DNA from: Actinopolymorpha sp. NPDC004070
Lineage (GTDB): Bacteria > Actinomycetota > Actinomycetes > Propionibacteriales > Actinopolymorphaceae
Assembly: GCF_040610475.1 (NCBI RefSeq)
Contig: NZ_JBEXMJ010000007.1
Coordinates: 186,001 to 250,000, forward strand
DNA: 64,000 nucleotides
Direction of reading: 5' to 3'
In this document: positions 16,441 through 20,469 of the stretch, in pieces
Numbering within the stretch: the first letter of the stretch is position 1
Layout: each line of letters starts with the position of its first letter
Made by a program: the position numbers and the translations under genes
Notes under the pieces: generated by a model
Databases searched by the model: none
What the model saw: the letters and a program-made list of their open reading frames with translations, nothing else
Told to the model about the DNA's origin: nothing

Positions 16441-17664
16441 ATGGCTTACGGCGCTCACGACGGCTACGACATCGACGGCATCCGCGCGGCCTACCCCGCG
16501 CTCGCGGACGGGCACGCCTTCCTCGACGGCGCGGGCGGCACCCAGGTGCCGCAGCCGGTGATCGACGCGATCGCCGACGCCTACCGCCAGGGGATCAGCA
16601 ACGTCGGCGGGGCGTCGGTGACCAGCCGGCGGTCGGACGGCATCGTCGCCGAGTGCCGGCGCGCGGTGGCCGACCTCGTCGGCGGCGAACCCGACGGCGT
16701 TGTCCTCGGCCCGAGCATGACCGCGCTGACCTACCGGCTGGCCGACGCGCTGGCCCGGCAGTGGGGGCCGGGTGAGGAAGTGGTGGTGTCCCGGCTGGAC
16801 CACGACGCCAACGTCCGGCCCTGGGTCCAGGCCGCCGAACGCGCCGGGGCCACGGTGCGCTGGGCGGACGTCGACGCGGCCACGGGTGAGCTGCCGGTCG
16901 AGCAGTACGACGACCTGCTCGGTGCCCGCACCCGCCTGGTGGCGGTCACCGGTGCGAGCAACCTCGTCGGCACCCGTCCCGACGTCGCCGCCATCGCGGC
17001 CCGGGCCCATGCGGTCGGGGCGCTGGTCTACGTCGACGGCGTGCACTCCACGCCGCACGCCGCCGTCGACGTCCGCGCGCTCGGCGCCGACTTCTACGCC
17101 ACCAGCGCCTACAAGTGGTCCGGGCCGCACCTGGCCGCCGTGGTCGCCGACCCGGTTGCGCTGGACGGCGTGCGCCCGGACCGGCTGCTGCCCGCGCCGG
17201 AGGAGGCGCCCGGACGGTTCGAGCGGGGCACGCTGCCGTTCGCCGACCTGGCAGGTGCCGTCGCCGCCGTCGACCACCTGGCCTGCCTGGACGCCGGCGC
17301 CGCGGGTTCGCGGCGGGCGCGGCTGCTGGCGTCGATGGCCGCGGTCGAGGCGTACGAAACGGACCTGTTCGCCCACCTCCTCGGCTCCCTCGACGCGATG
17401 CCGCACGTGACGACCTACGGCAAGGCAGCCCGGCGTACTCCCACCGCCTACTTCACCGTCGCCGGCCACACACCGCGCGAGGTCGCCGAACACCTCGCGG
17501 ACCTTCGGGTCAACGTCTCCAACGGCTCCAACTACGCCTGGGAGCTCGCCGCCGTGCTCGGCCTGCGCGACGACGGCGGCGCCGTCCGGGCCAGCCTGGC
17601 GCACTACACCGACCGGTCCGACGTCGACCGACTGCTCGAAGGCGTGGCCGGCATCCGGGCCTGA
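16441..17664 (+). CDS. Cysteine desulfurase-like PLP enzyme (class V aminotransferase)
   Basis: A 407-residue fold-type I PLP enzyme of the VC1184-like 'cysteine desulfurase-like' subgroup. The Schiff-base lysine is K225 in YATSAYKWSGPH; D199 and H202 in YVDGVHSTPH contact the cofactor ring. AFLDGAGGTQVPQPV near the N-terminus is typical. The catalytic cysteine loop of true IscS/SufS is not recognisable, and no isc or suf genes are adjacent, so the physiological substrate is uncertain. Separated from paaE by 93 bases with its own promoter. Confidence 0.85.
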   Translation: MAYGAHDGYDIDGIRAAYPALADGHAFLDGAGGTQVPQPVIDAIADAYRQGISNVGGASVTSRRSDGIVAECRRAVADLVGGEPDGVVLGPSMTALTYRLADALARQWGPGEEVVVSRLDHDANVRPWVQAAERAGATVRWADVDAATGELPVEQYDDLLGARTRLVAVTGASNLVGTRPDVAAIAARAHAVGALVYVDGVHSTPHAAVDVRALGADFYATSAYKWSGPHLAAVVADPVALDGVRPDRLLPAPEEAPGRFERGTLPFADLAGAVAAVDHLACLDAGAAGSRRARLLASMAAVEAYETDLFAHLLGSLDAMPHVTTYGKAARRTPTAYFTVAGHTPREVAEHLADLRVNVSNGSNYAWELAAVLGLRDDGGAVRASLAHYTDRSDVDRLLEGVAGIRA

Positions 17665-17865
17665 CGGGAGACGAGTCGGGCATGATCCGTCCCTGATCAG
17701 GATCCGACCGAACGAGCCTGTTGATAACCCCCGCGCACGCCTGGCCAAGCACTATGGTGAGCGGCCAAAGGAACCAATTGACGTGTGCAGTTCGACGGCA
17801 CCCGGCCGATCTGTGGCGTGGGCCAGCACCTGCCGAGCTGACTCATCCGACCTCGCAGTCAGGGG

Positions 17866-18207
17866 GTGGGCGCCATCGCCGAGATCGTGGTCACGAAGAC
17901 CGGGACGTCGACCGTCGCGGCCGTCGGCGACGAGATCCTCGTGCAGTTGCCGGAGAACGCCACCACGGGCTACCAGTGGAGCGTCGAACGCGTGTCCGGG
18001 CCGTTGGAGGTGGTGTCGTCGGAGCTGGCGCTTCCCGGCGCAGGCCCCGGTGTGGCACCGGTCGGCGCGGGCGGGCAGCGGCTGGTCCGGCTCGCCGTCG
18101 TCGCCCCCGGACTGGGCGCGGCCGAGCTCGTCCTCAGCCGCTCGTGGGAGACGAGTTCGCTGGAACGCTTCGAGGTCGAGGTACGCGCCGAGCCCGCGAG
18201 CTCCTGA
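17866..18207 (+). CDS. Chagasin-like cysteine protease inhibitor (I42 family)
   Basis: A 113-residue beta-rich protein. All three inhibitory loop signatures of the chagasin/ICP family (MEROPS I42) are recognisable: ENATTGYQW (30-38, family NPTTGY), GAGG (67-70, family GxGG) and SRSW (91-94, family RPW). These loops plug the active site of papain-family proteases. No signal peptide is visible, so it probably acts in the cytoplasm. It is convergent with a papain-like protease gene, which strongly suggests a protease/inhibitor pair. The GTG at 17866 is the first in-frame start, but its SD-like AGGGG lies too close; GTG 17887 is an alternative. Confidence 0.8.
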   Translation: MGAIAEIVVTKTGTSTVAAVGDEILVQLPENATTGYQWSVERVSGPLEVVSSELALPGAGPGVAPVGAGGQRLVRLAVVAPGLGAAELVLSRSWETSSLERFEVEVRAEPASS

Positions 18208-18264
18208 CGCGGTCCACGACAGCACTGTGCCCCGGCCCTGTCCACCTGCGGCGTCCACGTGGCC

Positions 18265-18323
18265 TGAGCACCCGCCCGCCGTACGGCCCGACCACCGGGA
18301 CCGGCCGGCGCGGCGGGTGCTCA
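18265..18323. terminator. Bidirectional hairpin between convergent inhibitor and protease operon
   Basis: A 12-bp perfect stem (TGAGCACCCGCC at 18265-18276, GGCGGGTGCTCA at 18312-18323) lies between the ends of the convergent genes at 18207 and 18344. It encloses a GC-rich loop that can fold internally. Confidence 0.6.
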
Positions 18324-18343
18324 CCAGGGCATGTCCTGGCCGT

Positions 18344-18784
18344 TCACCACAGGTAGATCTGCCGGATCACTCCCTCCGCGTCCTCGCAGACGCTGACCGG
18401 CCGGCCGGTGCGGTGCGCCTGCGCGCCCAGGAACGCCAGCACCGTGCCGGCGTGCTCGTGCGCGCGGGGGAGCCGCCGCCAGCCGGGCCCGCGCAGGAAC
18501 AGCCACGGCGTGCCCGGCCCCTCCGCCGGCCGGTACGCCTCGACGCGGACGTTCGCGTGCCAGTGCCCGCCCCGCCCGCCGGCCGGGGCGCCGGTCTGGG
18601 CGCCCCCGGTCGCGGCGGCCAGGTCGGCCTCGGTGACGTCGCCCGCCCGGCGCCGCGGCGGCGGCACCAGCGGGGGAGTGAACGACGGCTCGGGGCGGGT
18701 GCCCGGGGCGCTGACCGCCGAGGTCGCCGCCGTCCGTGGAACGGGAGCCCGTGCGGAGCTTCCTTCGGTGAAAGTGGTCGCCAT
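18344..18784 (-). CDS. Hypothetical protein sharing the C-terminal domain of the adjacent protease
   Basis: 146 residues, not assigned to a family. Residues 1-75 are Ala/Pro/Thr-rich and probably disordered. Residues 78-146 resemble the last 70 residues of the upstream papain-like protease: both have a W-rich strand (TPWLFLRGPGWRRL against THVWVYGADRGWLSL), a helix with LAFLGAQ against LAELATSQ, and an ending TGRPVSVCEDAEGVIRQIYL against LGRPVRLFEDDGRITSLH. The ATG at 18784 is 10 nt after the protease stop, with TGAGGATC as ribosome-binding site, so the two are co-transcribed. It may be a partner, adaptor or decoy of the protease. No catalytic residues are seen. Confidence 0.75.
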   Translation of the reverse strand: MATTFTEGSSARAPVPRTAATSAVSAPGTRPEPSFTPPLVPPPRRRAGDVTEADLAAATGGAQTGAPAGGRGGHWHANVRVEAYRPAEGPGTPWLFLRGPGWRRLPRAHEHAGTVLAFLGAQAHRTGRPVSVCEDAEGVIRQIYLW

Positions 18785-18794
18785 GTGCAGATCC

Positions 18795-19958
18795 TCACGA
18801 AGGATGGAGCGAGGTGATGCGTCCGTCGTCCTCGAACAACCGGACCGGCCGCCCGAGGGCCTGGGACGTCGCGAGCTCCGCCAGCAGCGGGTGCTCCGAC
18901 GCCATGTCGGCTCCGTCGAGGCTGAGCCAGCCGCGGTCGGCGCCGTACACCCACACGTGGGTGTCGTCCTCGCCCGCCCACAGGGCGAGGACCGTCATCT
19001 CCGGTAGCAGGGCGCGCAGGGTGACGCCGGTGATGCCGTAGACCTCGGCACCACCGGGACCGGGGTAGGACTCGATGTCGCACTCGCCGTAGCCGATCCG
19101 GAAGAATCCCTGCTCGCCCCAGCCGGTTCCCCAGCTGTTCTTGGCGATCCAGCACTGTTGGGCGTCGTCGTAGCCGACCAGTACGACGCAGTGACCGCCG
19201 GTCGCCGCACCGGACAGGTGCCGGTAGACACCCGACCGGTAGCTGAAGAAGTCCTGGTACACCACGAGGCACGCGATGACGGCGCCGTAGGTGCGCAGAT
19301 GCTCCTTGATCGCACCCGGGCCGGCGCCGATCCGGGTGAAGCCGGTGACCCGCACCCGCCGGTCGAGCCAGCCGGGGTCCAGGCCCGCGTCGTCGGCGTC
19401 GTTCGGGGAGTACGGAAAGCAGTCCTCGAACGCCACGCCGTACTCCGTCACCGACGGCAGCAGCCGGCCCGGCCACCATCCGGTGTCCGCGCCCGCGCCG
19501 TCGGACCGGCCGTAACCGTGGAACGCGTGTGCCTCGGACAGATCCAGCGGCAGGTCGGGCATCCGCCTGGTGAACCGCGCGACGTGCTCGACGGCCGCGA
19601 GCGTCGCGAACGCCGCACAGCTGCCGCAGGGTCCCTGGTCCTTGACCGGAGTGGTGTAGTCGACGCCGCCCACGTCACGTAGGTCGAAGTGGCCCGCGTC
19701 GTCGGCGTCGCCGCCCGCTCCGGTCGGCCCGTCCCCGGAGCGCGGAGCCGGAGGGACGCGCGTCGCCGGCACGGTGCCCCGGCGCCCGCCCGGCCCGGCC
19801 CCGGCCGCACGGGGCCTCGGCAGCGGGACGCGAACCCGACCGGCGCGCTCGCTCTCCGACAGTGCCGTCATCGGGTTGCGCGCCATCTCCCAGGACGTGC
19901 CGGCTCCGGTCAGCATCCGATCGAGGTCGGTCAGGTCGAGGGGCTGGTGAACAGGCAT
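18795..19958 (-). CDS. Papain-like cysteine protease (C1 family) with extra C-terminal domain
   Basis: 387 residues. The papain core has the oxyanion glutamine and catalytic cysteine in KDQGPCGSCAAFATL (Q108, C114), the histidine in GGHCVVLVGYDD (H256) and the asparagine in IAKNSWGTGWGEQGFF (N274). The core begins with FDLRDVGGVDYTTPV (91-105). Residues 1-90 form a propeptide-like, Pro/Gly/Arg-rich region with no signal peptide or Tat motif, so secretion is not evident. Residues 320-387 form an additional domain shared with the downstream protein. ATG 19958 has a GGGGGAA ribosome-binding site; in-frame sequence further upstream is non-coding in character. A chagasin-like inhibitor gene is convergent. 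Confidence 0.88.
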   Translation of the reverse strand: MPVHQPLDLTDLDRMLTGAGTSWEMARNPMTALSESERAGRVRVPLPRPRAAGAGPGGRRGTVPATRVPPAPRSGDGPTGAGGDADDAGHFDLRDVGGVDYTTPVKDQGPCGSCAAFATLAAVEHVARFTRRMPDLPLDLSEAHAFHGYGRSDGAGADTGWWPGRLLPSVTEYGVAFEDCFPYSPNDADDAGLDPGWLDRRVRVTGFTRIGAGPGAIKEHLRTYGAVIACLVVYQDFFSYRSGVYRHLSGAATGGHCVVLVGYDDAQQCWIAKNSWGTGWGEQGFFRIGYGECDIESYPGPGGAEVYGITGVTLRALLPEMTVLALWAGEDDTHVWVYGADRGWLSLDGADMASEHPLLAELATSQALGRPVRLFEDDGRITSLHPS

Positions 19959-20469
19959 GGTTCCCCCGTGGGCGTTTCCGTGGGCGGTCCGGTGGATCGG
20001 GGATTCCGGTCGCCTGCGGGTACGCCGGTGCGGGCCCGGCGGCCGGTCTGGGTGGGGCTGGGGGTGGAACGAACTGGTGAGACGAGCACGGGGCCGTGGC
20101 GCGGGTCGACGGCGCCGTTCGGTGGGCCGCCGAAGCGTGCGGGCCCGGTGCTCTGCGACGTCTCCATGGACGCCCTCCAAGGGGTCCCGGGGGTGTTGAC
20201 TTCCGGGGCCTTGGGTTCTGGGTACTCCTATGTGAGAAGAGTGACAAGTGATAACCGGAAAGTAGTCGTTACAGTTCGATGAAAGTTCAGATATGCGGAA
20301 ACGCCTGGTCAGCGAGGGGTTCGGGTGGGTTCGCGAGGTCTGGCGGGCGCCGGTGGCCGACCCGGCGCGGGTCCCCGCCCTGTCGGAGCGGCACCCTAAG
20401 CTGACGCGGGTCGGGCGTGAACGGGACAGTTCACGACATCCGGCACACGACTTCCCGGGAGGAACAGGC
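19959..20469. promoter_or_regulatory. Divergent promoter region, protease operon / thyX
   Basis: 511 bases without a credible gene. The stretch 20196-20310 is clearly AT-richer than its surroundings. On the minus strand TTATCA followed 18 bases later by TAGGAG (about 20252 down to 20223) is a possible promoter for the protease operon. On the plus strand TTGACT at 20196 has no well-spaced partner. Nothing else is recognised. Confidence 0.3.

Follow-up and report, generated by a model that had tools for sequence, protein, structure and literature searches.

A three-gene locus in Actinopolymorpha

We analyzed a 64,000-nucleotide stretch of the genome of Actinopolymorpha sp. NPDC004070 (contig NZ_JBEXMJ010000007.1, positions 186,001 to 250,000; hereafter, the window), in which the genes of a papain-like (C1) protease, of a small protein that we call the companion, and of a chagasin-family (I42) cysteine-peptidase inhibitor lie together (Table 1). 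A preliminary description of this DNA had proposed that the three form one module. The companion gene starts 10 bp past the protease stop codon on the same strand, an arrangement that makes cotranscription of the two plausible; the inhibitor gene is convergent to the companion gene, 136 bp from its stop codon. A consensus scan of positions 17600-20400 returned no promoter-like or terminator-like sites.

In comparisons with three congeners, the ratio of nonsynonymous to synonymous substitution rates (dN/dS) is 0.44-0.51 for the companion, 0.22-0.32 for the protease, and 0.18-0.25 for the inhibitor; all three genes are under purifying selection (dN/dS < 1). The Actinopolymorpha rutila locus encodes a protease 92% identical to that of the window. 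In this species (L013/L095), the protease open reading frame (ORF) is split into two overlapping frames, with the companion and I42 genes intact.

Table 1. Position of the three genes and their parts within the window
Feature	Position	Strand	Evidence or remark
Three-gene locus	17866-19958		I42 on +, C1 protease and companion on -
I42 (chagasin-family) cysteine-peptidase inhibitor, 113 aa	17866..18207	+	Pfam PF09394, phmmer to chagasin 2fo8
Inhibitor motif NATTGY	17956..17973	+	Sequence reading; lines up with chagasin NPTTGF
Inhibitor motif GAGG	18064..18075	+	Sequence reading; lines up with chagasin GAGG
Inhibitor motif RSW	18139..18147	+	Sequence reading; lines up with chagasin RPW
Companion protein, 146 aa	18344..18784	-	Without described family; homologs adjoin tail-bearing proteases
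Companion C-terminal OB-fold domain (predicted), residues 73-146	18347..18568	-	
Companion N-terminal arm, residues 1-72	18569..18784	-	Model: low confidence, mostly unstructured
Papain-like (C1) protease, 387 aa	18795..19958	-	Pfam PF00112; AlphaFold2 pTM 0.83
Protease prosegment-like N-terminal stretch, residues 1-45	19824..19958	-	Invariant residues; procathepsin alignment of model
Protease catalytic domain, residues 90-298	19065..19691	-	Pfam; Q108, C114, H256, N274
Protease C-terminal OB-like tail, residues 311-387	18798..19028	-	hhalign; protease-only profile

The protease and the inhibitor

The Pfam family Peptidase_C1 matches the catalytic domain of the protease over almost its whole length (E = 4.7e-34, profile positions 4-215 of 220), and the four active-site residues (Q108, C114, H256, and N274) are identical in all 51 aligned proteases from loci with the three genes, that of the window included and the frame-broken A. 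rutila copy L013 excluded. Judged by sequence, the protease is a C1 family member with its Gln/Cys/His/Asn active site intact, as the preliminary description had it. The N-terminal stretch contains seven residues (L9, L16, W23, L33, E35, R38, and V44) that are invariant among 23 aligned homologs. When the AlphaFold2 model of the protease is compared with known structures, procathepsins rank above mature cathepsins, with an alignment that runs from residue 5 on, which suggests a zymogen-like enzyme with a short N-terminal prosegment. What supports the prosegment is its position in the model; an ERFNIN-type prosegment is not claimed. The last ~77 residues, which are conserved across the 23 aligned homologs, are not part of the catalytic domain; we refer to them as the tail.

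Export signals were sought with a hydrophobicity test (not SignalP) in which the most hydrophobic possible start of each protein was used. By this simple measure, neither the protease nor the inhibitor of the window has an evident signal peptide, in agreement with what had been noted previously. Six out of 86 proteases pass the threshold: L088, L035, and the pairs L010/L101 and L011/L100, each pair being from the same genome. The tail is clear in only one of these, L035, the N terminus of which is unlike a signal peptide.

The inhibitor matches Pfam Inhibitor_I42 with E = 1.8e-16 (60.6 bits, cut-off 27.2) and the solved chagasin 2fo8 with E = 4e-7 (phmmer), and it is the single I42 match in its genome. 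The motifs NATTGY, GAGG, and RSW, which we take to be the three inhibitory loops, line up with their chagasin counterparts; the earlier assignment of a convergent I42 gene with three loop motifs thus stands. Strict loop patterns match 30, 29, and 43 of 52 I42 relatives, respectively, so the loops vary within the family. The export-like I42 proteins of L052, L053, and L080 adjoin proteases without an evident signal peptide.

Conservation of the three-gene unit

Nearly all loci were collected by matches to the protease profile alone, keeping the best 80 out of 130 relatives, with extra regions added from relatives, so their neighboring genes are unselected. The set comprises 87 nonredundant loci: 79 of the best 80, seven from the genome set, and the window. 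L086, the protease of which is spread over two frames, was left out of this count. Removing six loci with <1 kb of downstream sequence (L050, L051, L054, L064, L074, and L088) leaves 81. Hidden Markov models (HMMs) of the companion and of I42 were iterated on the ORFs of the same loci, and I42 was counted as present if it lay within 2 kb. In a control with reversed ORFs, each of the three HMMs matched 0 out of 15,327.

The tail, the companion, and I42 occur together in 52 out of the 81 loci. A further 13 have the tail and the companion with no I42 within 2 kb, three have the tail only, nine have I42 beside a protease without the tail, and four have neither tail nor I42. The companion is found in 65 of 68 loci with tail-bearing proteases and in none of the 13 with tail-less proteases (P = 1.5e-12, Fisher's test, relatedness ignored). 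I42 lies near the protease in 61 loci; the two genes share a strand in 42 of these and are on opposite strands in 19. The distance matrices of the unit correlate with each other (r = 0.83, 0.77, and 0.73), and none of 999 permutations reaches the observed values, shared descent being ignored.

Actinobacterial loci with all three genes include those of Streptomyces, Kribbella, Amycolatopsis, Paractinoplanes, and Kineosporia. Others are from Rhodobacteraceae (L040, L045, L058, and L062), the cyanobacterium Elainella (L055), and the Bacteroidota isolate Kaistella (L080), and there are contigs of metagenome-assembled genomes (MAGs) labeled Syntrophobacteraceae, Deltaproteobacteria, and Methanosaeta, labels that may be wrong. 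The Deinococcus aetherius plasmid pDAETH-2 (L102) carries a C1 peptidase, a hypothetical protein, I42, and a caspase-family protein in a row; the hypothetical protein is the companion (E = 3e-28), giving the same gene order in another phylum. Out of 13 plasmid records matched in our search, one holds a full-length relative, and the phage records gave one weak match only.

The unit thus recurs in very distant bacteria, which points to a real protease-control system rather than to a chance neighborhood. It is true that the genes flanking the unit in the window, coding for a cysteine-desulfurase-like protein and ThyX, are functionally unrelated to it, as would be expected of accidental neighbors; but the conserved loci, the genome samples described below, and the Deinococcus plasmid refute chance co-occurrence, and we give this explanation practically no weight. 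The neighborhood search that the preliminary description had called for therefore bears out its proposal of one module: The three-gene module is real and old.

Three further loci are noted here. In Kaistella (L080), a second, different C1-like peptidase gene lies directly upstream of the protease. On a Streptomyces canus plasmid (L103), an I42 gene comes immediately after that of a C1 peptidase of 1023 aa, with no companion annotated. The record named Rhodococcus rhodnii NRRL B-16535 (L047) has a neighborhood that matches Kibdelosporangium loci, and the name may be wrong.

The companion and the protease tail

The companion of the window belongs to no family in Pfam or NCBIfam. When the companion set was compared with Pfam, three different families each touched one of 47 members, at E > 0.07; the companion profile matched no chain among PDB sequences at E up to 5, and a comparison with viral structures gave no match at E up to 0.001. 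In the AlphaFold2 model, the C-terminal domain is a small oligonucleotide/oligosaccharide-binding (OB) fold, and confidence (predicted local distance difference test, pLDDT) is <50 over residues 1-14, 16-29, and 60-70. The fold matches toxin B subunits, pro-protein-glutaminase, and SilF equally well. None of 69 companions passes the hydrophobicity threshold for a signal peptide.

A direct BLAST comparison of the protease with the companion is weak (E = 0.032), and it was profile comparison that settled their homology: With hhalign, protease residues 311-387 align with companion residues 69-146 (probability 98.4, E = 7.3e-15), and an HMM built from proteases alone matches the companions of other loci through HMM positions of about 290-370. 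On this evidence from sequence profiles, the C-terminal domain of the companion is a paralog of the protease's own tail, a relationship that the preliminary description had not noticed. When 70 tails and 68 companions are placed on one tree, a single branch parts the two sets without exception (FastTree support 0.924), and we therefore read the sequences as the product of one tail/companion duplication that is older than the divergence of the sampled lineages and of which both copies have been retained.

The N-terminal arm is built of proline-rich units in tandem (for example, GAWDPNTPPPT or GWDPYAPPP), three to 12 of them by a rough pattern, in 20 of 69 companions (L044, L048-L050, L056, L057, L059-L061, L065-L068, L070-L072, L075, L077, L078, and L082). 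A GG-type leader cleavage in the arm, considered from the window sequence, was dropped since other companions are without it.

The companion could act on the enzyme in trans, as an inhibitor or as its main substrate; the OB domain would then dock on the tail or elsewhere on the protease, and the arm would enter the active-site cleft. There is a precedent in protein-glutaminase, in which an OB pro-domain lies over the enzyme's own papain-like site, but the domain match to that protein is tied with those to toxin B subunits and SilF. A loose P-x-hydrophobic-x-P pattern, which may be due to chance, is present in the arms of 45 of 69 companions. The pattern is also proline-rich, and proline-rich sequence is a poor papain substrate, which counts against the companion as a substrate. 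We consider such a role in trans quite unlikely.

It could also be that only the protease-inhibitor pair is functional and that the companion is a passenger left by the tail duplication, as the nine of 13 tail-less protease loci that carry I42 without a companion might suggest. Against this, the old duplication has been kept in the sampled tail lineages (65 of 68), and the companion's dN/dS within the genus is that of a constrained gene; the passenger explanation seems to us very improbable.

Genome-wide surveys

In a sample of 57 genomes (the window's own genome, the genus, family, and order), I42 is present in seven, and in each of them a C1 peptidase is encoded no more than 5 kb away. Six of the 57 have the companion, and all six have the protease and I42. 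Eight other C1 peptidases in this sample (E < 1e-11) have no I42 nearby. Among 20 genomes behind the collected loci, 18 carry I42, with 20 matches, 18 of which are at the protease locus by coordinates.

A sample of the class (216 genomes) was surveyed with at most 18 candidates scored per genome, and so with limited sensitivity. The companion occurs in two of these genomes, both with the protease and an adjacent I42. I42 occurs in 36 and is near a protease-profile match in eight, including the two companion genomes. The pairing of C1 peptidases with I42 therefore reaches beyond the tail-bearing type. Near other C1-type peptidases, I42 genes are seen in G188, G147, G080, G100, G090, and G139. 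In both samples, the companion is found only beside the protease (six of six and two of two genomes).

Recurrent neighbors

Twenty-one loci, which by name belong to the Amycolatopsis-Prauserella-Saccharomonospora group, encode a TPR-CHAT protein 1.7-2.8 kb downstream. The CHAT assignment (E = 1e-24) is from one representative; L077:9938-13932 is one of the 21. Between the module and the TPR-CHAT gene lies an extracytoplasmic function (ECF) sigma factor (sigma-70 match, E = 3e-12, one representative), and a protein of ~196 aa is also beside them in the representatives checked. In nine other loci (L021, L026, L027, L029-L032, L035, and L036), a convergent STAS-like gene directly follows I42; the HMM that finds these nine was built from three of them, and the STAS matches in Pfam are below the curated cut-offs. 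On the D. aetherius plasmid (L102:5904-8255), the three genes are followed, in the same orientation, by that of a C14 caspase (E = 9e-13). Other shared neighbors are possible, since our coarse flank clustering, in which antisense shadows of the protease caused confusion, failed to pick up the STAS-like gene. Among PADLOC anti-phage defense families, none matched six proteins at E up to 0.01.

These neighbors suggest that expression is regulated and, in some cases, that a second protease, caspase-like in kind, is present. The ECF sigma factor with TPR-CHAT, the STAS-like protein, and the C14 caspase together hint at stress-signaled proteolysis.

The changing neighbors and the patchy distribution would also fit an effector with its immunity protein: The protease would be delivered out of the cell without a signal peptide against competitors, I42 would confer immunity, and the companion would be a delivery or receptor-binding subunit. 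One copy is on a plasmid, the companion fold resembles toxin B subunits, and the three diderm or MAG inhibitors L052, L053, and L080 have signal- or lipoprotein-like N termini. On the other side, no secretion-system or toxin-delivery gene was recognized beside the module (in an annotation that was not exhaustive), no signal peptide is evident on the protease or companion, no PADLOC family matches, and the companion fold is matched equally well by pro-protein-glutaminase and SilF. We regard an effector role as unlikely, although it deserves some consideration.

Discussion

The reading that we favor, and hold to be somewhat probable, is that a zymogen-like papain-type protease, a dedicated chagasin, and an OB tail that assembles with an OB companion make up one conserved functional unit. 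The enzyme would combine a short N-terminal prosegment with a C-terminal OB-fold tail. The chagasin would be its dedicated inhibitor, plugging the active site of enzyme that is active too early or misplaced; by analogy with SpeB-Spi, staphopain-staphostatin, and the Bacteroides C10 proteases, it would keep the protease capped before its activity is required or in places where that activity would do harm. The companion amounts to the tail domain as a separate protein, preceded by a flexible N-terminal arm. It most likely attaches to the tail, its sister domain in the enzyme, by OB-OB contacts and serves as an assembly or control subunit, and its arm could carry contacts to a substrate, a partner, or the cleft. 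Zymogen control and an intracellular location would be part of the same scheme, and the unit may then work as the switch inside the cell that the preliminary description had suggested.

Several observations weigh against this reading. An OB fold alone does not imply assembly. The inhibitor appears dispensable in part of the family, since the 13 loci noted above have no I42 nearby and two genomes (G065 and G070) have the tail and companion with no I42 match at all; in a third, G007, I42 is ~4 kb from the protease. Three loci counted as having the tail (L079, L091, and L101, the tail call of L101 being weak) are without both partners. The 19 inhibitors out of 61 that lie on the opposite strand cannot share a transcript with the protease. 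Signal- or lipoprotein-like N termini in three of 66 inhibitor relatives may weigh against a purely internal role. Finally, the P values overstate independence, since the majority of the loci come from related actinobacteria.

A bolder extension is a mixed ring of one protease OB tail and several companions, an AB5-like holoenzyme with the chagasin as a safety lock, which in some lineages would feed a second protease resembling a caspase (TPR-CHAT in 21 loci, C14 caspase in Deinococcus) in a bacterial proteolytic cascade. We offer this as speculation and think it unlikely. The companion has an OB fold of the B-subunit type by its model, but by the hydrophobicity test 0 of 69 companions have the signal peptide of AB5 toxin B subunits; it resembles these, SilF, and the pro-protein-glutaminase pro-domain in fold, without significant matches among PDB sequences.

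That papain-like proteases are genetically linked with inhibitors is an established theme, described for SpeB-Spi, staphopain-staphostatin, and Bacteroides C10 in the accessible text of PMC3462683, and the present unit shares with them a papain-fold protease gene linked to a small dedicated inhibitor. However, those proteases are of families C10 and C47, whereas that of the unit is C1, and their inhibitors do not have the I42 fold. SpeB-Spi-type proteases are secreted, whereas the unit's protease has no signal peptide evident to the hydrophobicity heuristic, and the accessible text (PMC3462683) reports for such systems no third subunit that is a paralog of a protease tail. Unlike procathepsins B, H, and L and cathepsin C (C1A), the protease ends in an OB tail, lacks an evident signal peptide, and comes with a separate OB companion.

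The inhibitor is of the same family as chagasin/ICP (I42) of trypanosomatids and Cip1, with the same three loop positions. The I42 proteins listed in the accessible part of one review are parasite proteins (PMC7863939), and Cip1 of Pseudomonas syringae is described (PMC5014320) as being secreted, by means of a signal peptide of 21 residues, and as inhibiting plant proteases. A 2009 analysis (PMC2784779) states that a single bacterial chagasin had been confirmed as an inhibitor, and only on a eukaryotic protease. In searches of open-access literature, in the accessible text of PMC7863939, PMC5014320, PMC2784779, PMC3901451, PMC3462683, PMC3482391, and PMC7159879, and in a term search of PMC10380794, we found no account of a unit in which a C1 protease and I42 are joined by an OB companion; within that open-access scope, this agrees with the earlier statement that the three-component unit is undescribed.

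What is known, then, is a papain-like protease with a linked inhibitor; what is new is a chagasin as that inhibitor and a paralogous OB subunit. Because chagasins are linked in several phyla to a single type of protease, bacterial chagasins gain a candidate natural target, and what they inhibit in their own cells becomes directly testable with one protein pair. The OB companion, paralogous to the tail and retained with it, points to a way of controlling or assembling a protease of which we found no description.
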